A stretch of 64,000 nucleotides of DNA. Origin: Sulfuricella denitrificans. Lineage in GTDB: Bacteria > Pseudomonadota > Gammaproteobacteria > Burkholderiales > Sulfuricellaceae. A model generated the notes under the pieces. It ran no database searches. It worked only from the letters and a program-made list of their open reading frames with translations, and was not told where the DNA came from. Position numbers and translations under genes: made by a program. The stretch covers positions 62,001 to 126,000 of the forward strand of contig NSJJ01000003.1 in assembly GCA_002632355.1 (NCBI GenBank). Reading direction: 5' to 3'. Shown piece by piece: positions 45,798-56,597 of the stretch (positions within the stretch are counted from its first letter, which is position 1; every line of letters starts with the position of its first letter).

Positions 45798-46349
45798 TCA
45801 GGCTTCGCGACCTTTTGCGACCATCACCAGCGCCGGGCGCAGGATGCGGTCATGCAACTGGTAGCCTTTCTGCAATACCGTGACCACCGTGTTGGGTTCG
45901 GCATCGCTGTCCACCATGCTGATGGCCTGGTGTTTGTGCGGATCGAATTTCTCTCCGGCCGGATTGAGTTCGGCGATGCTGGATTTTTCGAAGGCCGATA
46001 CCAGTTGCTTGAGGGTCAGTTCGACGCCGCTCTTGAGGCTATCCAGAGTGGCAGTCTCCACCGCCAGCGCAGCTTCGAGGCTGTCTTTCACAGCCAGTAG
46101 TTCATTGGAGAAATTTTCCACGGCATATTTGTGCGCATTGGCGACATCGGCCTGTGAGCGCTTGCGAATGTTCTCGGCATCGGCCTTGGCGCGCAGCCAG
46201 GCATCGTGGTGTTCCTGAGCGGCCAGTTCGGCCTGTTTCAGGAGTTCTTCCATGCTCGGCATGGTTTCCACAGAGTCGGCGGCATCCGGGGTTTGCGTGA
46301 CGCCGTCTTTCTTTTCCAGTTCGGGGGTGTTCTGTTCGTCTTGCATCAA
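45798..46349 (-). CDS. grpE: GrpE, nucleotide exchange factor of DnaK
   Basis: A 183-residue protein with an acidic N-terminus, a long helix ([20 protein letters not shown]), the GrpE signature region ([20 protein letters not shown]) and an end [20 protein letters not shown]. It releases ADP from DnaK and acts as a thermosensor. It is the first gene of the heat-shock operon, with a sigma-32-type promoter upstream. The first ATG is used; the second codon is also Met. Confidence 0.96.
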
Positions 46350-46545: not shown

Positions 46546-49242
46546 TTAATGCCCGTTTTCAGGTTTCAGCAAAGCCGTGATTTCATCGGGCGGCACGGGC
46601 CGGCCAAGAAAAAACCCCTGAGCGCGGTCGCAGCCCAGTTCGTGCAGGCGCTGAAGCTGTTGTGCCGTTTCGACGCCTTCGGCAATCACCTTGAGACCCA
46701 GGTTGTGCGCCATGGTGATGATGGCAGTGACAATGGCCGAGTCGTCGCTGTCGGTCATCAGGTCCTTGATAAAGGAACGGTCGATTTTCAGCGTATGCAG
46801 CGGCATTTTCTTGAGCTGGCTGAGAGAGGAATAGCCTGTGCCAAAATCGTCGATCGCAGTCTGCACGCCGATCTGGGTGATGGATTGCAAGGTGTGCATG
46901 GAGTGATCGGTATTTTCCATCGCCACACTTTCAGTGATTTCCAGTTCCAGAAACTCCGGAGGCAGTCCGCACAGGTGCAGGGTGCGGGTTACCAGACCAG
47001 TAAGGTCCTTCTTGTGGAACTGGCGCCCGGAGAGATTGACTGCGACCTGCAGCGGGAACCCCATGTCAAGCCAGTTCCTGGCCTGGCAGCAGGCTTCTTC
47101 CAGCACCCATGCGCCTATTGGCTGGATCAGGCCGGTCTCTTCCGCCACCGGGATGAATTCGATGGGCGGAACCAGACCCAGCGTGGGGTGTTGCCAGCGG
47201 ATCAGGGCCTCGACACCTATGATTTCTCCAGTGACGATATTGGTCTGGATCTGGTAGTGGAGAATGAATTCGTTGCGATCCAGCGCATTGTAGAGCTGAT
47301 TCTGCAATTCCAGGCGGCGCATGGTCTGCAGCGACAGGTCGTTGGTGTATAAATGAAAGCCGGCACGCCCCTGGCCCTTGACGTGGTACATCGCCGTATC
47401 GGCGTTCTTCATCAGGGTGCCTACATTTTCGCCATCATTGGGGTATATGCTGATGCCGATGCTGACTGTGACAAAAATCTCCTGTTCGGAAAGGATGAAA
47501 GGGTGCTTCATGCTTTCCAGTACCTTGGAGGCGACCAGTATGGCTTCGTCAGCGTGATCCACCTCGGGTAGCAGGATGGTGAATTCGTCACCGCCGAGGC
47601 GAGCGACAGTGTCGGTTGCGCGTACGCATTTGCGCAGGCGTTTGGCGACTTCCTGCAGAAGGTGATCGCCGGCATCGTGCCCCAGGGTGTCGTTGATAAA
47701 CTTGAAGCGGTCGAGATCCATGAACAGCACTGCCACATTCTGATGGTGGAGGCGTTGCGCGAAGGCCAGCGCCTGTTCCAGCCGGTCCTTGAAAAGCACC
47801 CGGTTGGGCAGGTTGGTGAGCGCGTCGTGATAGGCCTGGTGGATGATTTTGTCTTCGGACCGTTTGCGCTCGGTAATGTCGCTGAATACGCTGATGTAGT
47901 GCAGGGTGTCGCCATCTTCGCTCTTGACACTGGAAACGTTCATCCACTCGGCGTAGATCTCGCCGTTTTTGCGCCTGTTCCAGATCTCGCCCTGCCATTG
48001 TCCGGTGGTTGCCAGGGAATGCCAGAAATCCATGTAAAAATCGCTGTCATGCTTACCCGACTGAAGAAGGCTGGGGTCCCGGCCCAGCACCTCATCACGG
48101 CTATATCCCGTGACTTCGCTGAATACCCGGTTGACGGTGAGGATTTTCCCCTCGCCATTGGTAATGATGATGCCATCGAGCGAGTTTTCGAAAACCTCGG
48201 CGGCAAGGCGCAGGGAGAGTTCGTCCTTCTTCTGCTGGGTGATGTCGTGGATGGTGAGCTGTATCAGGGTTTCTCCATCCAGCTGCGCGGCGCCCATCAC
48301 GGTATCAGCTGGGAAAATATCACCGTTGTGGCGTTTGAACAGCCACTCGAAATGCTGTGTCTGATTAATGCCGGCAAGTTCGATGCGGTGCTGGATTTCG
48401 CTATCGGTTGGCCTGCCGCCAGTCTGCTTTGGTGCGCTGATGTCGCTGAAAGAGAGTGAGCGAAACAAGACGACAGAGGGAAGATGAAACATGATCAGTG
48501 CCGCCGGATTGCAGTTTACGAAGCCACGTGAGTCCAGCACCAGGATCGCATCATTGGAGGATTCGAACAAAGCCTGATATTTTTTTTGCTCACGCAAGAA
48601 CCCGGCATCCAGCTTTTCCCTGCTGGACACGAAGCGCCAGGCAAAAATGGTGACTACCGTAAAAAACAGGCCGGCAAATATCACGGCAAACAGCAGAATC
48701 AGTTTGCTGCGATGATGATTGGCCATGCTTTCCTGATAAACCTGATCGGTGCGAAACATCAGGTTGCTCGCAGCATCGTCAAGCAGGGTCTTCATCTGCT
48801 GGTACAGGGGGCGTCCCTGTTCCTGAAAGCGCTCCGGCGCATTTTTGGGGTCGGTTTCCTCCTGTTGCTGGAGGACGCTCTGCATGGTTAGCAGTTCCGC
48901 GTAGGTCCGCTGTATTTCAGTCATGATGCCGCGGTTTCTGGGACACTGACAATTGCGCTGCAGTTCGGCAAGATCCTCTTTGGTTTTAGTGGCCAGATAG
49001 GCCATTTGGCCCGACTTGTTCTGATTCCGGCGTGGACTTTCCTGCTGGATTTGCATGGTATTCAGGCTTTGGTGGATCTTTGCCATCAGGTTGATCTGAA
49101 GAAGACTGTTTTTTTCTATCCAGGTGATGTGCTGACGCGATTGCTCCATGCTCCAGTAGCCGATACCGGAAACCAGCATGCCTGCGCCGTTGCCGAACAG
49201 AAATAGCAGCAACAGGACTTTCTTTATGCTGAAACCTGGCAT
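46546..49242 (-). CDS. Membrane PAS-PAS-GGDEF-EAL protein (c-di-GMP turnover)
   Basis: An 898-residue sensor. Membrane helices at about 8-28 and 180-204 frame a helical periplasmic domain that contains CQCP. Two PAS domains (about 220-335 and 345-455) follow, then GGDEF (about 465-625, intact ARLGGDEFTILL) and EAL (about 640-890, with GVEALIRWQHP, NLSGRQF, ELEITES, DDFGTGYSSL). Both active sites look complete, so it may make or degrade c-di-GMP depending on signal. Its ATG directly abuts the stop of the GGDEF-EAL gene upstream (49243), so they form an operon. Confidence 0.92.
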   Translation of the reverse strand: MPGFSIKKVLLLLFLFGNGAGMLVSGIGYWSMEQSRQHITWIEKNSLLQINLMAKIHQSLNTMQIQQESPRRNQNKSGQMAYLATKTKEDLAELQRNCQCPRNRGIMTEIQRTYAELLTMQSVLQQQEETDPKNAPERFQEQGRPLYQQMKTLLDDAASNLMFRTDQVYQESMANHHRSKLILLFAVIFAGLFFTVVTIFAWRFVSSREKLDAGFLREQKKYQALFESSNDAILVLDSRGFVNCNPAALIMFHLPSVVLFRSLSFSDISAPKQTGGRPTDSEIQHRIELAGINQTQHFEWLFKRHNGDIFPADTVMGAAQLDGETLIQLTIHDITQQKKDELSLRLAAEVFENSLDGIIITNGEGKILTVNRVFSEVTGYSRDEVLGRDPSLLQSGKHDSDFYMDFWHSLATTGQWQGEIWNRRKNGEIYAEWMNVSSVKSEDGDTLHYISVFSDITERKRSEDKIIHQAYHDALTNLPNRVLFKDRLEQALAFAQRLHHQNVAVLFMDLDRFKFINDTLGHDAGDHLLQEVAKRLRKCVRATDTVARLGGDEFTILLPEVDHADEAILVASKVLESMKHPFILSEQEIFVTVSIGISIYPNDGENVGTLMKNADTAMYHVKGQGRAGFHLYTNDLSLQTMRRLELQNQLYNALDRNEFILHYQIQTNIVTGEIIGVEALIRWQHPTLGLVPPIEFIPVAEETGLIQPIGAWVLEEACCQARNWLDMGFPLQVAVNLSGRQFHKKDLTGLVTRTLHLCGLPPEFLELEITESVAMENTDHSMHTLQSITQIGVQTAIDDFGTGYSSLSQLKKMPLHTLKIDRSFIKDLMTDSDDSAIVTAIITMAHNLGLKVIAEGVETAQQLQRLHELGCDRAQGFFLGRPVPPDEITALLKPENGH

Positions 49243-50679
49243 TTAAAGGTTTCCCGCGGGAAACTCAAGTGGAATCTGGCTGCTCCAGCAGGTGCTTGGG
49301 GCGGCTGTTTCCCTCTGGCGCAGGAGGATATGGCCAATGTTTTTTGCCGGCATCGGAGGGAAAAAGTAATAACCCTGCACTTCATGGCACTGATAGGAGC
49401 GCAGAAAAATGAGTTGTTTTTCGTTTTCGACGCCTTCCGCTACGACCCTGACACCAAGATTTTGCGCCATGGCGATCACGCCGCGAGTGATGGCCGCATC
49501 GCTGGAATTTGTGGTGATGCCGCCTATAAAAGATCGGTCGATCTTGATGCTGTGGATCGGGAAGTGCCTGAGGTAGGTGAGGGAAGAATAGCCGGTGCCG
49601 AAGTCGTCGATAGCAAGTCTGACGCCCATGTTCTTGAGGATCTTCAGGGTCTCGATGGCAGCGTCGATATCGTGCAGGGCAATGGTTTCGGTCAGTTCCA
49701 GTTCCAGCCAGCGTGGCGCCAGGCCGCTTTCCGCAAGCGCTTCATGAACCAGCCGGTCGAGACCTGGCTTGCTGAACTGCTGTGCAGATAGATTGACTGC
49801 CATGCGCAGGTCGTTGTGTCCCTGTTTGTGCCAGGCGCTGTTCTGGGCGCAGGCACGATGCAGCACCCATTCGCTGATGGGGTGGATAAGACCAATTTCC
49901 TCAGCCAGCGGAATGAATTCTGCCGGAGAAATTGTGCCCAGTTCTGGATGCTCCCAGCGCAGCAGGGCTTCAACGCCGCGCATTTCTCCGCTGTCGAGGT
50001 CGATTTGTGGCTGGTAGTGCAATATCAGTTGCTCTTTTTTCAGTGCGTGGTGCAGGGCCTGTTCCAGTAAGGCGCGGCGTGTCGAGCGGCGGCTCTGGTG
50101 ATGTTCCGGATCGAAAAACAGATGGCTGTCGCGCCCGTGGTCCTTGATCTGATCCATTGCGGTCTTGGCATTTGCGATCAGCTCACAGACGGTTTTCCCC
50201 TGGCTGGGGTAGTGACTGATGCCGATGCTGACGGTGATGAAGGCTTCCTCGCCTTCGATCAGGAAAGGGGTGGAAAGACTTTGTTTGATCTGTTCTGCCA
50301 GAGCGGTGATTGCCTGTCCGTTATCCGAGTTGCCCACCGCCAGGGCAAAAGTATCGCCGCCAAGGCGTGCGAGCGCGCAACTTTCTGCCTGGAATTTTGC
50401 AAGACGCCTGGAACTGGCCTGAAGCACCAGGTCTCCGGCAGCATAACCATAGGTATCGTTGACCTGTTTGAAGCGATCAAGCCCGATGATTACAAGGGCC
50501 ATGTTTTGTGACTTGTGTTCGGCGCGTGACAGGCACAGGTCGAGCTGGTTTCTGAATAGCGTATAGTTGGGCAGCCCGGTCAACGCATCCAGGAACGCCG
50601 GCGCGCTTGGCAGATCCAGATCTGGCGGCTGTTCTGGCAGGTCTTTAATGCAGGCGGCAGTATTGTTTTGAAATTGCAT
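49243..50679 (-). CDS. Soluble GGDEF-EAL protein with degenerate GGDEF, probable c-di-GMP phosphodiesterase
   Basis: A 478-residue cytoplasmic protein. The GGDEF domain (about 28-195) has ARLGGDTFALAV in place of GG(D/E)EF, so cyclase activity is unlikely and it may be a regulatory GTP-binding domain. The EAL domain (about 205-455) keeps GVEALLRWEHP, NLSAQQF, ELELTET, DDFGTGYSSL and KIDRSFI and should hydrolyse c-di-GMP. No membrane or sensory segment is visible. It is immediately followed by the PAS-PAS-GGDEF-EAL gene without any gap, so the two may act as an opposing or sequential pair. Confidence 0.9.
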   Translation of the reverse strand: MQFQNNTAACIKDLPEQPPDLDLPSAPAFLDALTGLPNYTLFRNQLDLCLSRAEHKSQNMALVIIGLDRFKQVNDTYGYAAGDLVLQASSRRLAKFQAESCALARLGGDTFALAVGNSDNGQAITALAEQIKQSLSTPFLIEGEEAFITVSIGISHYPSQGKTVCELIANAKTAMDQIKDHGRDSHLFFDPEHHQSRRSTRRALLEQALHHALKKEQLILHYQPQIDLDSGEMRGVEALLRWEHPELGTISPAEFIPLAEEIGLIHPISEWVLHRACAQNSAWHKQGHNDLRMAVNLSAQQFSKPGLDRLVHEALAESGLAPRWLELELTETIALHDIDAAIETLKILKNMGVRLAIDDFGTGYSSLTYLRHFPIHSIKIDRSFIGGITTNSSDAAITRGVIAMAQNLGVRVVAEGVENEKQLIFLRSYQCHEVQGYYFFPPMPAKNIGHILLRQRETAAPSTCWSSQIPLEFPAGNL

Positions 50680-50834: not shown

Positions 50835-51464
50835 TTAGTCAAAAAGCTGGTGCTCAAGGGCATGGCGAATCAATTCAGCATTATTCGTCATGCCCATTTT
50901 TTCCAGAAGGCGTGCGCGATAAGTGCTGATGGTCTTGATGCTGAGGGAGAGTTCCTGGGCAATTTCGGTCAGCGATTTGCCCGCCACGATCTGGCGGAAG
51001 ACAAGATGTTCCCGATCCGATAGCAGGGTGTGCAGTTGTTGCCCGTTGCTGTAAAGCGAATGCAGCAGGTGGTCCGCCAGCGTGCGGCTGGCGTACCTGC
51101 CACCTGCGGCGGCTTTGCGAATGGCGATGAGCAGTTCGTCGGCGTCGGTATCCTTCGAGAGGTAGCCGGACGCGCCGAGCTTGATGGCCCTTACCGCGTA
51201 TTGTTCCTCAGGATGCATGCTGAGAATCAATACAGGCAGATCGGGTTTTTCCGTCTTGATCTGTTTCAGCACGTCCAGCCCGGATTTGCCTGGCAGGTTG
51301 ATGTCCAGCAGAACGACATCCCAGTGCCTGCTTCGCATTTGTTCGAGTGCTTCGTGGCCGCTGCTCGCCTCGTCGCCGACTTCGATGTCGGCGGTATCGG
51401 CAAAGATGCGCTTCAGGCCCTCGCGAAAAATATTGTGATCATCCGCGATGAGGATTTTGATCAT
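50835..51464 (-). CDS. NarL/FixJ-family response regulator
   Basis: A 209-residue regulator: receiver domain (acidic pair in ILIADDHNIFREG, phospho-Asp in VVLLDINLPGKSG, Lys in GYLSKDTDADEL) and a C-terminal LuxR-type helix-turn-helix (LSDREHLVFRQIVAGKSLTE, LSLSIKTISTYRARLLEKM). Its ATG overlaps the TGA of the kinase gene (ATGA), so it is the cognate partner. Target promoters are unknown. The 155-base gap downstream separates it from the GGDEF-EAL gene. Confidence 0.93.
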   Translation of the reverse strand: MIKILIADDHNIFREGLKRIFADTADIEVGDEASSGHEALEQMRSRHWDVVLLDINLPGKSGLDVLKQIKTEKPDLPVLILSMHPEEQYAVRAIKLGASGYLSKDTDADELLIAIRKAAAGGRYASRTLADHLLHSLYSNGQQLHTLLSDREHLVFRQIVAGKSLTEIAQELSLSIKTISTYRARLLEKMGMTNNAELIRHALEHQLFD

Positions 51465-52558
51465 GGCGGGCTATTCTCAGCCGATGCAGGGGGGAGCTGA
51501 AGGTGGACGGTAGTGCCATGGCCTGGCGTGCTATGAATGTTCAGCTTGCCCCCCAGTTGCTTGGCGCGTTCCTGCATGCCGAGGATGCCGTAGGACTGGA
51601 AGGAGGGTATACGGTCCGTATCCATGCCGCTGCCATTGTCGCTGATGATGATACCCAGGGCATCCGTGGTCGGCATGAGTTCAATGGTCACGGAGGTCGC
51701 TGCTGCATGGCGCACGACGTTGGTAAGTGATTCCTGGAAAATGCGGAAAATGGTGGTGGCGCGCTGGTCGTCCAGTTCGACTTCCTGTTGCGGCGGGATG
51801 AGGCTGTAGGCGATCCCCCGTTGCCCAAGCAGCGTTGCCGCATGTTCCTCCATGGCTGCAACCAGACCCAGGTTGTCCAGCGCGGCTGGGCGCAGGTCTG
51901 CGGCAATGCGCCGTGCGGTGTGCAGCGCTTCCATGGTCAGTTGCGACATGGCTTGCGTGCGTTCCAGTAGTGCCTGATCGTGCATGCGCTTGGCCAGCCA
52001 GCCGAGATCCATCTTCAGCGTGCTGAGGATGCCGCCCAGTTCGTCGTGAATTTCCCGCGCGATCTTGGTGCGCTCGTCCTCCCGTGCGCTTTGTACGTGA
52101 CCGGAAAGTTTCTCCAGCAATTCCCGTGCATGCAGGCTTTCATCCTCACGCTGTTTGGAAAGGGTGATGTTGAGAATAATGCCGTCCCAGAGAGTGGAAC
52201 CGTCCGTCACGGTGCGGGGTACGGCACGCAGGTTGATCCATTTGATATCGCCCGGAGGCACGATGACCCGGCCTTCCCAGTTCCAGTGGGTCTGTTTCTG
52301 GGCGGAAAGCCGCATCGCATCGAAGAAGGACGTCCGGTCGTCAGGATGCAGGTTGCTGATGCAGGGGAGCCAGGGAATATCGGAATCCGGATCCGGTTCG
52401 CTGCATACGGCTTTTACTGCCTTGCTGGTGAACAGTGATTTGAGGCCGCCGTCGGCATCTTGCTGTAGCTGGAACACCAGGGCCGGAACGTTGGCGGTGA
52501 TGGCCTCGATCCGCAATCCGTCGTCATGCAGTGAGGCGTCTTGCGCAGAGAGTGTCAC
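51461..52558 (-). CDS. PAS-domain HisKA_3 (NarX/UhpB-type) sensor kinase
   Basis: A protein of about 365 residues with a PAS-like region (about 15-135, HPDDRTSFFDAMRLSAQKQT, RVIVPPGDIKWINLRAVPRT), dimerisation/phosphoacceptor helix KIAREIHDELGGILSTLK (His171) and an HATPase_c domain (IFQESLTNVVRHAAATSVTI, DNGSGMD, GILGMQERAKQLGG). There is no membrane segment, so it senses a cytoplasmic cue. The likely GTG start at 52558 lies four bases after the chemoreceptor stop; the longer open frame covers that gene and is not real. It is coupled to the NarL-type regulator. Confidence 0.88.
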   Translation of the reverse strand: MTLSAQDASLHDDGLRIEAITANVPALVFQLQQDADGGLKSLFTSKAVKAVCSEPDPDSDIPWLPCISNLHPDDRTSFFDAMRLSAQKQTHWNWEGRVIVPPGDIKWINLRAVPRTVTDGSTLWDGIILNITLSKQREDESLHARELLEKLSGHVQSAREDERTKIAREIHDELGGILSTLKMDLGWLAKRMHDQALLERTQAMSQLTMEALHTARRIAADLRPAALDNLGLVAAMEEHAATLLGQRGIAYSLIPPQQEVELDDQRATTIFRIFQESLTNVVRHAAATSVTIELMPTTDALGIIISDNGSGMDTDRIPSFQSYGILGMQERAKQLGGKLNIHSTPGHGTTVHLQLPPASAENSPP

Positions 52559-52562
52559 GCGT

Positions 52563-54203
52563 TCAAACCTTGAATCGGCTAACCGTATTTTGCAAAGATT
52601 CAGCCAGCTGCTCCAGATGTTGCGCTGCGTTGGCCGTCTGGCCCACTGCCAGGCTGTTTTCTGCGGCCATGGCGGCGATCGCCTCGACATTGGCGGCGAC
52701 CTCGCTGCTGGCAGTGCGCTGGCGTTCCGCAATGACCGCCACATCGGCGACCTTGCTGCCGACCTCGTTGACTGAGCTATTGGCTTCAGACAGAACGACG
52801 GCCACGGTCTCCATCGAATCCTGGCTGGAAAGCAGGTGGGACATCCCTCTTTCGATTGCCTGGTCGACCACGACGGACTGCTGGGCAAGGGACTGGGTGA
52901 CAGCGTCGATCTGGCTGGCTGAATGCGCGGATTTTTCCGCAAGTTTTCTCACTTCATCGGCGACCACGGCAAAGCCGCGTCCCTGCTCTCCGGCCCGGGC
53001 AGCCTCGATCGCGGCGTTGAGCGCGAGCAGGTTGGTCTGTTCGGCAATGTCTTTGACCTGCCGGGTCATGGTATGAATGGAAGCGGTGCTGCGGGTAAAT
53101 TCGTTCACTGCGGCAGCAATTTCCTTGACTGCGGATTCTACCTGGTCGATCTCGCCCACCAGCTCGGAAATGCTTTCATTGCCCCGGTGCGAACGTTCAA
53201 GGCTTTGTTCGGAGAGGTGCTGCACTTCATCCGTGCTTTGCGCCACGGTGGAGATGCTGGACGCCATTTCCTCCACGGCGGCGGCCGTGGCCGCGGATTT
53301 GTCGCGTTGCTGCGCGGAGCCGTCGGCGACCTGCTGCGCGCCATGGGCGAGTTGACTCGCTGCTGCTGATACCTGATGCGCGGAGTGGTTGACTTCGCGA
53401 ACCAGGTGGCTGAATTTTTCCATCACCTGGTTGAACAAACCGGAGGCCTCGCCGATTTCGTCCGTGCTGCGTACCTTCAGGCGGCGCGTCAGATCGCCCT
53501 CGCCTTCGGCAATGTCATGCAGGCCGTGGGTCATTTCCTCCAGCGGCCGGGTAACGAAATGGCGAATGAACAAGTAGATGAAAGCCAGCAGCGGCAGGCT
53601 GATCAACACGGCGGCAAAGAAAATCCTGGTTCTGAAATCCGCCACGGACTGGTTGACCTTGTCGAGAGAAATTTTCATGCTGACTGCGCCAAGTACCGTG
53701 CCTTCAGGTACGGTATGGCACATCAGGCAATCCTTGCCAAGATAGTTCTTCGAGGCAGTGACGGGAATCACGGCGTGCAGGCTTTCCTTGTCCCCGCTGT
53801 TTTCCTGAAGCACCTGAAAGTAGGGCTTTGCACTTTGCATGACCTCTTTTTCCAGCTCGTCGGCGCCACTTTCCTCTGCGCTGCCCTGACCAAACTGTTT
53901 GGTCACCGCTTCGCCCCGCAGCACTTTGAGCGAGGTGACGTTGTCAGCCTGCTTGACCTGGTCGAGAAACACTGCGCGTTGCGCAATGGTGCCGGTAATC
54001 ATCATGCCGGTGAGGCTCGACATGGTCATCTGATGTATGGCGAGAGAGAATCCCTTGGCTTCTTCAATGGCGGTTGCGCGCTGTGCATTCGAAGCCCAGA
54101 TGATCACGCCTCCCCAGGCCAGACCCAGCATCAGCCAGATCACGCCCACCAGACGGACCCAGATTTTCAGATTTTTGATTTTGCCAATGCTTGAGCCGGA
54201 CAT
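52563..54203 (-). CDS. Methyl-accepting chemotaxis protein with a c-type haem motif in its sensor domain
   Basis: A protein of about 546 residues with two membrane helices (about 15-37 and 195-215), a HAMP domain ([20 protein letters not shown]) and a signalling domain with the conserved hairpin tip ([20 protein letters not shown]). The periplasmic domain contains [12 protein letters not shown] (Cys159, Cys162, His163), a CxxCH haem-attachment site, so it is probably a redox or gas sensor like the haem-containing chemoreceptors known in Geobacter. ATG at 54203 is preferred; ATG at 54269 adds 22 residues. It is encoded just before a cytoplasmic sensor kinase. Confidence 0.88.
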
Positions 54204-54335
54204 ACTCAGGGATTCTCTTATGTGTTGATCAGGGGAAAGCCTAATAAGGTCACTTACTATATCAGCCATTCAGAAGAAATGGGATGGGACAGAAAGACTA
54301 GCTGGCAATATTTATTGATAGGGCTGTCCGAAATC

Positions 54336-55397
54336 TTAGATGGCAAGGTCGATTTGCTGCAAGGTGCCGACAGAACCGTTTTCGTTCAGATAGATACCGC
54401 TGGCGCGTAACTGGCCATCGAGCCGGTTTTCCGTGTTCTTGAGGCTGAATTCGGTGGCGGCGCTACCCAGATATAATGCGCCCACCCCCGCTGCTTTCAG
54501 GCTGGTTAGCTGGTCATTCCCCTGGGCGTCTTTGCTCCATATCCCGAGATGCGAATACACGGCATCATTTTCGTCGATCCACTGGTTGCCATCCTGATCG
54601 TAGGCAGCCAGTTCGCTGAAGCCATTGCCGCTGGTTGGGCCGAACAGTTCGCCGCCATTGTTGATTTTCCCGTCCTGGTTTTTGTCCAGCGCAAGAAAGC
54701 CGCTGCCAGGCGCGACGAAGGAAATCTGTTCGGAATGCCCGTCGGAATCGAGGTCGAAGCTGAATTTCGTGGCGCTCAGTTGCGCTGTGTCGCCATTGAA
54801 GTTGATCACCAGCGGGTCTTTTGCCTGACGCGCGGCATCGCCCAGACGCACGCTGACATCGTTTTGCTCCAGATGTTCGCGGCTCATGGAAAGTTGCAGC
54901 TTGAAAGTGATTTCCCTGCCGTCGGCGGTTTTGACCACGCCCTGGGCCTGGAAGCGGGTCTGCTCGGCTTCATAATGGGTTTCATGGCGTTCGTATTCGG
55001 CGCTGAAACCGGCTGGTCGCGATGCTGCCGGTTTGCTGGTGCTATCGGGGGGGTGCGGTAATTCCGTAGGCGGCGCATCGGTGGCTTGCAGGTCCTTCAA
55101 GGAAAGGATGCGAATTTTTTTGCCGGTCATGGCTTCCACCATGCTGATGAGCAATTGCATGCGCGGGTCGTTTTCAACCGCATCCTGTGGTTCCGATACG
55201 GCATCCGGTTGCTGCGCCGACCTGCCTTGAGCAGAAATCGAGACCGTGTCCGCCAGCGGGCGGTTTTTGAGTCTGTTGTGCCCATCGGAGTCCGGGCGTT
55301 CCGCGCTGATCCAGGCGCGTAGCGACTCGCGCAGCGAATGCCTTTCCACGCTGAGGTGCTGGCTGGACAACAAGATATCCGAGTTTTCGATTTTCAT
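54336..55397 (-). CDS. EF-hand/VCBS-like calcium-binding protein of unknown function
   Basis: A 353-residue protein with a low-complexity N-terminal half and no signal peptide. The C-terminal half holds three calcium-loop-like motifs: DLDSDGHSE (about 215-223), DKNQDGKINNGGE (238-250) and DQDGNQWIDEND (267-278). Similar aspartate-rich loops occur in large adhesins and in VCBS-type proteins, but I recognise no full family match. ATG at 55397 has AGGG upstream. A sigma-28-like promoter precedes it, hinting at expression with motility genes. It is not obviously linked to the chemoreceptor operon. Confidence 0.75.
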   Translation of the reverse strand: MKIENSDILLSSQHLSVERHSLRESLRAWISAERPDSDGHNRLKNRPLADTVSISAQGRSAQQPDAVSEPQDAVENDPRMQLLISMVEAMTGKKIRILSLKDLQATDAPPTELPHPPDSTSKPAASRPAGFSAEYERHETHYEAEQTRFQAQGVVKTADGREITFKLQLSMSREHLEQNDVSVRLGDAARQAKDPLVINFNGDTAQLSATKFSFDLDSDGHSEQISFVAPGSGFLALDKNQDGKINNGGELFGPTSGNGFSELAAYDQDGNQWIDENDAVYSHLGIWSKDAQGNDQLTSLKAAGVGALYLGSAATEFSLKNTENRLDGQLRASGIYLNENGSVGTLQQIDLAI

Positions 55398-55474
55398 GAT
55401 CAATCCCTAATTAAAGAAAGACGCAAGTCTCCTGCTTTTTTTGGGATTGTTGGATGGGGAAGCTTGCCCTGGTT

Positions 55475-55505: not shown

Positions 55506-56597
55506 TTAATTCTTTGCGCCCATGGCCATTGCCCGTGCCTTGCTTTCCTCCCCGGATGCGGGATCGGGTGTTTCCTGCAGCCAGCCCTGCAGGTGGTTGA
55601 GGGTGATGTCGCACAAGGCGCGTAACCAGTCGTCACGCTCGTTGAGGCAGGGAATGTAGTGGAATTCCTGGCCGCCGGCACGGAGGAAGTCCGCTTTGCA
55701 TTCCATGGCGATTTCTTCCAGGGTCTCCAGGCAGTCGGCTGCAAAGCCGGGGCAGATCACGTCCACCCGTTTGACGCCTTTTTTACCCAACATTTTCAGG
55801 GTGGGTGCGGTGTAGGGCTGAACCCATTCGGCGCGCCCGAAACGTGACTGGAACGTGATCTGGAAGTTGTCGGGCTTGAGGCCCAGCGCCTCCGCCAGCA
55901 GGCGCCCGGTCTTGTGACATTCGCAGTGGTAGGGGTCGCCCTTGTCCAGTGTGTAACGGGGCACGCCGTGAAAACTCATGATCAGCTGGTCCGGGCGGCC
56001 ATGCTGTTGCCAGTGCTCGCGCACGCTGTTGGCGAGAGCTTGTATATAGCCGGGGTGGTCGTGGTAGTGTCGTACGGTGCGCAGTTCCGGCATGTTGCGG
56101 CTCTGCAGCAGGGTCTGGAATACCGCATCCAGCGCCGATGCGGTGCTGCTCGCCGCATACTGCGGATAGAGCGGCAGGGCAAGGATGCGCTCGCAGCCCT
56201 GTTTGCGCAGCGAGGCGATTGCCGATGGCACGGACGGGTTGCCGTAACGCATCGCATATTCCACCACCAGCGGCACCTGCGTGCGCTCACCCAGATAGCC
56301 TTGCAGCATCTTCGCCTGCTTGCGAGTGTGTGCAAGCAGAGGCGAACCTTCCGGGGTCCAGATCTGGGCATATTTCTGTGCCGATTTGCCGGGACGGGTG
56401 TTAAGGATCACGCCGTTAAGTATCAGCCACCACAGCCAGCGCGGGATCTCGACCACGCGCGGGTCGCTGAGAAATTGCTTGAGGTAGGGACGCAGCGCCT
56501 GCCGGGTAGGGGCCTCCGGGGTGCCGAGGTTGATCAGCAGGATGCCGGTTCTGGATGGAATTCCGTGTGTGTGAGGCGGTTCGGCGAGGAAGGGCAT
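55506..56597 (-). CDS. hemH: HemH, ferrochelatase
   Basis: A 363-residue enzyme that inserts Fe2+ into protoporphyrin IX in the last step of haem b synthesis. Signatures include [15 protein letters not shown], the active-site His in [17 protein letters not shown], and [18 protein letters not shown] with [16 protein letters not shown] at 56597 lies eight bases after the hrcA stop; the frame is open further upstream, but that part is antisense-like within hrcA. The hrcA-hemH pairing is usual in betaproteobacteria. Confidence 0.95.

Follow-up and report, generated by a model that had tools for sequence, protein, structure and literature searches.

Among the described systems closest to the chemoreceptor analysed here are GSU0935 and GSU0582 of Geobacter sulfurreducens (PDB 3B42 and 3B47), which have the same layout of transmembrane helix, sensor, transmembrane helix, HAMP and MCP domains, a CxxCH motif, a Cache/PAS-like fold and an axial methionine that aligns with one in our receptor (PMC8396549). 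The spin change of GSU0935 upon reduction is ascribed there to the probable binding of Met60, which CO and NO replace, and a redox-linked change of ligation is the proposed signal (PMC8396549). The likeness has limits, in that sequence similarity is marginal and the profile alignment leaves five residues ahead of the receptor's CxxCH unmatched. A wider family, sCache_heme (DUF3365/Tll0287, PF11845), was defined in a 2026 preprint; its members likewise have an extracytoplasmic Cache domain with a motif for covalent haem, joined to signalling outputs, and the one signalling representative examined there was reported to bind NO without forming a stable complex with oxygen (PMC12889525). The present receptor differs in falling below the PF11845 cut-off and in having a candidate axial Met where Tll0287 has a reported axial Cys (PMC12889525).

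In H-NOX neighbourhoods, too, the gene of a haem NO sensor adjoins that of a kinase, a regulator or an enzyme of c-di-GMP turnover, and the sensor is described as binding and regulating its partner (PMC8738867), whereas what is seen here is gene adjacency, and the sensor is a membrane protein with a c-type haem motif. A further point of comparison comes from two loci of the same family (L064 in genome G010 and L066 in genome G018), each encoding one protein with a PF11845 haem sensor, PAS, HisKA_3 and HATPase domains, followed by a NarL-type regulator (a call made by Pfam for the L064 regulator only). The haem-c Cache-type sensor, the kinase class and the regulator class are common to these loci and ours, but what is one protein there is divided here between a kinase and a separate sensor, the latter a membrane protein with an MCP output. 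The fusions indicate that this type of pathway exists in fused form and are no proof that the split proteins interact.

The locus compared with these systems lies on the minus strand of the window, the whole 64,000-nucleotide stretch of DNA that was analysed. Its receptor belongs to a known kind, the haem-c chemoreceptors, and its gene arrangement is lineage specific. In a search of mainly open-access literature, no listed report described the genes of a haem-c chemoreceptor and a kinase pair together. On balance we favor the view that the receptor is a haem receptor of the CheA type, and that its transcript also encodes an EAL phosphodiesterase and a separate switch that senses the cytoplasm.

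Gene content

55506 to 56597, minus strand: hemH, left flank of the variable interval (locus comparison)
54336 to 55403, minus strand: X, a 355-amino-acid protein with no Pfam match, the second variable tenant of the hemH-grpE interval
54256 to 54261, minus strand: TATAGT, a promoter-like -10 element about 55 bases 5' of the receptor start (from conservation; function putative)
52563 to 54203, minus strand: predicted haem-c chemoreceptor, 546 amino acids, with transmembrane helix, Cache-like haem sensor, transmembrane helix, HAMP and MCP signalling domain (Pfam HAMP and MCPsignal)
54000 to 54002, minus strand: codon of Met68, a residue proposed as the sixth (axial) ligand of the haem (from invariance and profile alignments to GSU0935 Met60)
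53715 to 53729, minus strand: codons of residues 159 to 163, CLMCH, the motif for haem attachment (sequence)
51461 to 52558, minus strand: soluble sensor kinase, 365 amino acids, PAS_3, HisKA_3 and HATPase_c (Pfam)
50835 to 51464, minus strand: NarL/FixJ-type response regulator, 209 amino acids, receiver and GerE helix-turn-helix (Pfam)
49243 to 50679, minus strand: GE1, GGDEF-EAL protein in which the EAL motifs are intact and GGDEF is degenerate (GGDTF) (Pfam)
46546 to 49242, minus strand: GE2, PAS-GGDEF-EAL protein, an optional member of the block found in two of the four kinase-bearing loci (Pfam)
45798 to 46349, minus strand: grpE, right flank of the variable interval (locus comparison)

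In the sense of transcription the order is hrcA, hemH, X, chemoreceptor, kinase, regulator, GE1, GE2, grpE and dnaK; the names hrcA, hemH, grpE and dnaK are presumptive and were given from familiar sequence features. The initial annotation described a three-gene operon of receptor, kinase and regulator. All of the features that it reported stand: the receptor stop codon (TGA, 52563 to 52565) and the kinase start codon (GTG, 52556 to 52558) leave a gap of four bases, the kinase is free of membrane domains by Pfam, and the regulator start sits within the kinase stop in an ATGA overlap. The interval assigned to the operon, 51461 to 54203, does need correction, ending as it does before the regulator. 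The two further genes on the same strand, GE1 (49243 to 50679) and GE2 (46546 to 49242), were not mentioned in that annotation. A tRNA scan of the 64-kb window found none.

The sensor domain and its predicted haem

Taken singly, the sensor sequence matched nothing significantly in PDB or Pfam, and profiles and a structure model were needed. Against PF11845 (Tll0287-like) it scores 12.9 bits, below the gathering cut-off of 24.1, and for this reason we do not file it in that family and call it only a divergent relative of haem-c Cache sensors. A profile of 20 related sensors placed GSU0935 second (E 0.32), and a profile of 31 sensors searched against all PDB sequences ranked 3B47 (GSU0582, E 0.017) and 3B42 (GSU0935, E 0.021) first, scores that are marginal by sequence alone. 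The membrane position of the receptor was assigned from its sequence and from the helix pattern of an AlphaFold model of residues 1 to 215 (mean pLDDT 73.5), in which the sensor fold is Cache/PAS-like. With the sensor model as query, Foldseek ranked 3B42 (GSU0935) second (E 4e-5), behind a WalK model (E 1.7e-5), and a second structural comparison gave a Z score of 10.3 over 121 residues for Tll0287, with WalK domains higher, at 11.2 to 13.4. We take the outer domain of WalK to be haem-free, as are presumably many of the other Cache domains among the best structural rows. The fold alone is no proof of haem, since haem-free Cache domains match as well. The claim of a haem rests on the CxxCH motif.

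That motif, which the initial annotation had placed in the periplasmic domain, is present as CLMCH at residues 159 to 163. The chance expectation for CxxCH, calculated from the receptor's own composition, is 0.0002, and its observed frequency is far above this. All 50 rows with similarity to the sensor contain it (the rows overlap between searches), and both CxxCH and Met68 are invariant in all 46 aligned sensor relatives, an alignment that spans different outputs (31 MCP, 11 GGDEF and two HD). Loss of the motif from orthologues, which the initial annotation had named as a ground for refutation, was seen in no aligned row. A separate set of 46 receptor loci was examined, and CxxCH was present in 18; in the other 28 the match to the query was confined to the HAMP and signalling half, and these proteins have other sensors. 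In profile alignments Met68 falls on Met60 of GSU0935, with Cys 140, Cys 143 and His144 in register (GSU0935 residue numbers as in PMC8396549), and it is a candidate for a switchable axial ligand.

On this sequence evidence the receptor very probably senses redox state or NO through an attached haem; the haem would be covalently loaded, with the ligand as predicted above. The suggestion in the initial annotation of covalent haem with redox or gas sensing is supported by the similarity to GSU0935 and GSU0582, by the invariant CxxCH and Met, and by the published biochemistry of relatives (PMC8396549, PMC12889525). Redox and NO are both candidate signals because of the Met60 chemistry of GSU0935 (PMC8396549) and the reported binding of NO by the signalling representative of sCache_heme (PMC12889525). 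Three cytochrome d1-domain (nitrite reductase-like) genes are located on the same contig as the receptor and make periplasmic NO plausible. A haem-c redox or NO receptor would thus be placed, with a plausible source of NO, in a lineage that we presume, from the names of the records and general knowledge, to consist of sulfur oxidisers.

Receptor output

The cytoplasmic half of the receptor contains a HAMP domain (residues 212 to 262) and an MCP signalling domain (residues 372 to 511), the latter with a Pfam E value of 3.5e-36 when the whole protein is searched. Its signalling tip is canonical when compared with what we take to be the canonical motif. The same genome encodes a CheA with Hpt, dimerisation, ATPase and CheW domains and has 11 CheW-domain matches, so that the MCP domain, the canonical tip and the CheA/CheW partners of a CheA-coupled chemoreceptor are all present. 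On a Gallionellaceae contig (L016), a more distant haem receptor, with 41% identity across residues 36 to 546, lies inside a motA-motB-MCP-cheV-cheV-cheY-cheZ-cheA cluster (Pfam, with the names cheV and cheY read from domains), and two other loci, L013 and L015, resemble it by eye. The motAB-che context of L016 supports CheA coupling for this receptor group, and the receptor of the window would be expected to signal in the same way.

Conservation of the arrangement among relatives

The content of the hemH-grpE interval varies among related genomes. In the genome of the window it consists of X, receptor, kinase, regulator, GE1 and GE2; two genomes (G004 and G005) lack GE2 from this series, and a third (G002) lacks X. 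Among the genes sought, only the receptor was found in G006 and G040, preceded in G040 by one small open reading frame, and only X in G001, G003 and G007, while the interval is empty in G059 and holds a Fic-domain gene in G048. We considered hemH as a functional neighbour of the receptor and rejected it, since hemH and grpE are adjacent without a receptor in G059.

Against this background, the gene order that the initial annotation had proposed for a conservation check proved constant, and extends to a fourth gene: receptor, kinase, regulator and GE1 follow one another in four of four kinase-bearing loci, GE1 being the next gene after the regulator in each, and only X and GE2 vary. The ATGA junction of kinase and regulator is kept in all four, and, measured up to the first start codon of the kinase, the gaps that follow the receptor are 4, 9, 16 and 19 bases. 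Kinases of the other genomes with this four-gene order are 68 to 84% identical to that of the window. That the short gaps and the order have been kept despite such divergence suggests selection for the arrangement. It also argues against the explanation that hemH-grpE is simply an insertion hot spot, in which the genes came together by chance and were inherited together within one genus. The empty interval of G059, the intervals with X alone of the genes sought and the Fic-domain gene of G048 are what a hot spot would give, and the presence table for the genus falls short of significance (two-sided Fisher p 0.14); we nevertheless regard chance assembly as very improbable.

In the receptor tree, G006 and G004 are sisters, and the genome of the window, G005 and G002 are joined, both groupings with support of 100/100. 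Because G006 is sister to the kinase-bearing G004, loss of the kinase block is the simplest reading of its locus. The hemH-grpE tree is poorly resolved and gives no order for the gains and losses of the whole block. The series of gains and losses at a single locus offers a clean test of cooperation between receptor and kinase.

When the regions upstream of the receptor were aligned, the sequence TATAGT was the same in five of five genomes, including the kinase-less G006; an automatic promoter scan did not have the element at 54256 to 54261 among its predictions. This invariance before the receptor, G006 included, indicates that the receptor probably heads the transcript, and the kinase block is probably co-transcribed with it. 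Retention of the element in a genome without the kinase pair is a difficulty for a different view, in which the pair mainly controls expression of the locus and c-di-GMP turnover through GE1, with the receptor among its targets. The fixed order of the four genes beside the variable X and GE2 agrees with that view, as do conserved stretches within the gap of about 130 to 155 bases between regulator and GE1. The intergenic alignments, searched by eye for a regulator binding site, gave conserved blocks with no clear repeat, which counts against such control, and we consider it rather unlikely.

The kinase, the regulator and GE1

A kinase with HisKA_3 and HATPase_c domains adjoins a regulator with receiver and GerE domains, as in HisKA_3/NarL pairs generally. 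In the 22 genomes of the family, orthologues of the kinase occur in four (that of the window, G002, G004 and G005), all of one genus and always adjoining the receptor; in 399 sampled genomes of the order, matches that are not orthologues reach at most 45% identity. Only the genome of the window matched the kinase at an E value of at most 1e-80 among 369 genomes sampled across the class, a thin sample in that G002, G004 and G005, which would match, gave no row. A close sensor (E at most 1e-69) was found in 13 of 61 relatives, and in 12 of these at least one is an MCP. The kinase orthologue accompanies the close receptor in four of these 12 genomes and is absent from eight, two of which are assemblies less than 90% complete (G009, 80; G015, 89). 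Beyond the genus, a search for the receptor-kinase link in 82 loci (a set with many repeated genomes, in which L018 to L020 have no haem sensor and those from L078 up have flanks of about 1.5 kb) gave a kinase match in only 10 loci, from the same four genomes. A search of plasmids matched 176 records; in two of these the match, with some 26% identity, extends over 80% or more of the query.

Outside the genus, the nearest kinase homologues are up to 45% identical over the protein and 49% over the kinase part and include REC-PAS-HisKA_3 and PAS-HisKA_3 proteins. A similar regulator is encoded within the fetched stretch at 42 of 45 kinase loci, the four orthologous loci included. Scores for the kinase part were 199 bits for L108, 198 for L109, 191 for L111 and 191 for the haem-kinase L064, the REC domain having been identified by Pfam in L111 and by reading of the sequence in L108 and L109. 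We considered whether the kinase pair derives most directly from the haem-kinases L064 and L066 and rejected this, since other kinases and regulators score equally or higher. In the four GE1 orthologues GGDEF is replaced by GGDTF or GGDSF, and the EAL motifs are intact in the three that were read fully; GE1 is a probable c-di-GMP phosphodiesterase.

One sensor or two

The initial annotation had raised the possibility that motility and transcription are both under the control of one haem sensor, a proposal left unsupported by the finding that most relatives with a close receptor, eight of 12, have it without the kinase. In its serial form, the receptor would supply the soluble kinase with its input from the membrane, as a haem-c sensor kinase split in two, with motility controlled through CheA and transcription through the kinase. 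All four kinase orthologues directly follow this receptor, and the fused proteins of L064 and L066 indicate that a sensor of this type can, when fused, drive such a kinase. However, the receptor occurs alone in those eight genomes, G006, most simply read as a loss, among them; some REC-PAS-HisKA_3 proteins score equally with or slightly above the fused haem kinases, which are not clearly the nearest kin; and membrane, HAMP and CheW-like parts are all missing from the kinase. We judge a serial pathway quite unlikely. A chemoreceptor array acting as membrane input of the kinase, in which the receptor recruits and controls the kinase besides CheA and a single periplasmic haem would govern swimming, transcription and c-di-GMP together, seems to us very doubtful; in its favor are the fusion of a haem-c sensor to the same class of kinase and regulator in another genus of the family and the presence of the receptor beside the kinase in four of four cases.

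We favor instead a kinase that reads a cytoplasmic signal by its own PAS domain, and independence of the receptor and kinase arms is the most likely state. In the model that we propose, the periplasmic Cache-like domain of the receptor would carry one c-type haem on CLMCH, its axial ligands being His163 and probably Met68. Met68 would be displaced when the haem is oxidised or binds NO, which would change the receptor's state and send a signal through the second transmembrane helix and HAMP to the CheA/CheW array. The kinase, the regulator and the degenerate-GGDEF EAL phosphodiesterase would form a block acquired or kept between receptor and grpE, probably on the receptor transcript yet constituting a separate pathway, in which the PAS domain would respond to a cytoplasmic signal and the NarL-type regulator would alter transcription. 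The link between receptor and kinase would then be one of coordination, through one promoter and a common theme of motility versus attachment, and not a phosphorelay. Every kinase orthologue found (four of four) adjoins this receptor, an association that a direct functional link would also predict and that weighs against independent arms.

Related sensors on other outputs

At an E value of at most 0.01, one of the 46 sensor relatives matches PF11845, and where haem-c Cache sensors have been counted with that model the totals may for this reason be low. The Betaproteobacteria would accordingly have a group of haem-c sensors that is mostly missed by the standard Pfam model. Similar sensors are fused in relatives to GGDEF, PAS-GGDEF-EAL and HD-GYP outputs, and the genome of the window itself encodes, at a second locus (L195), a similar sensor with the motif CLQCH, fused to HAMP and GGDEF.

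Variable genes of the hemH-grpE interval

The stretch between the genes that we take to be hemH and grpE, which holds the haem-c chemoreceptor and its kinase pair, has a second variable tenant, protein X, that comes and goes among relatives:

54336-55403, minus strand, protein X, 355 aa

No Pfam match was found for X, which contains EF-hand-like stretches. Comparison of this interval across loci revealed X without the receptor in three relatives (G001, G003, and G007). X adjoins the receptor in locus L009, on a contig binned as Desulfobulbus, where receptor and X show 50 to 53% identity to the window's betaproteobacterial-type locus; this contig is possibly mis-binned. In the relative G048 (locus L190), a Fic-domain gene is among those lying between hemH and grpE, which suggests that insertions recur at this site, as in a hot spot.

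Related proteins and cytochrome d1-domain genes elsewhere in the genome

Within the same genome, the best other match to the window's kinase (38%) is encoded on contig C4, in the following locus:

L198:2600-12480, paralogous kinase and NarL-type regulator, with an MCP-cheY-cheA-MCP-cheW cluster

The pair lies immediately upstream of the cluster and is a second kinase pair adjoining chemotaxis genes. Matches to its regulator at E<=1e-60 were found in 5 of 20 other relatives, at only 52 to 57%.

A second protein of this genome with the receptor's haem sensor type (L195:1558-3465) carries the motif CLQCH and has HAMP and GGDEF domains. Three cytochrome d1-domain genes (nirS-like group) lie together on one contig of this genome (locus L196, C12:218879-229478).
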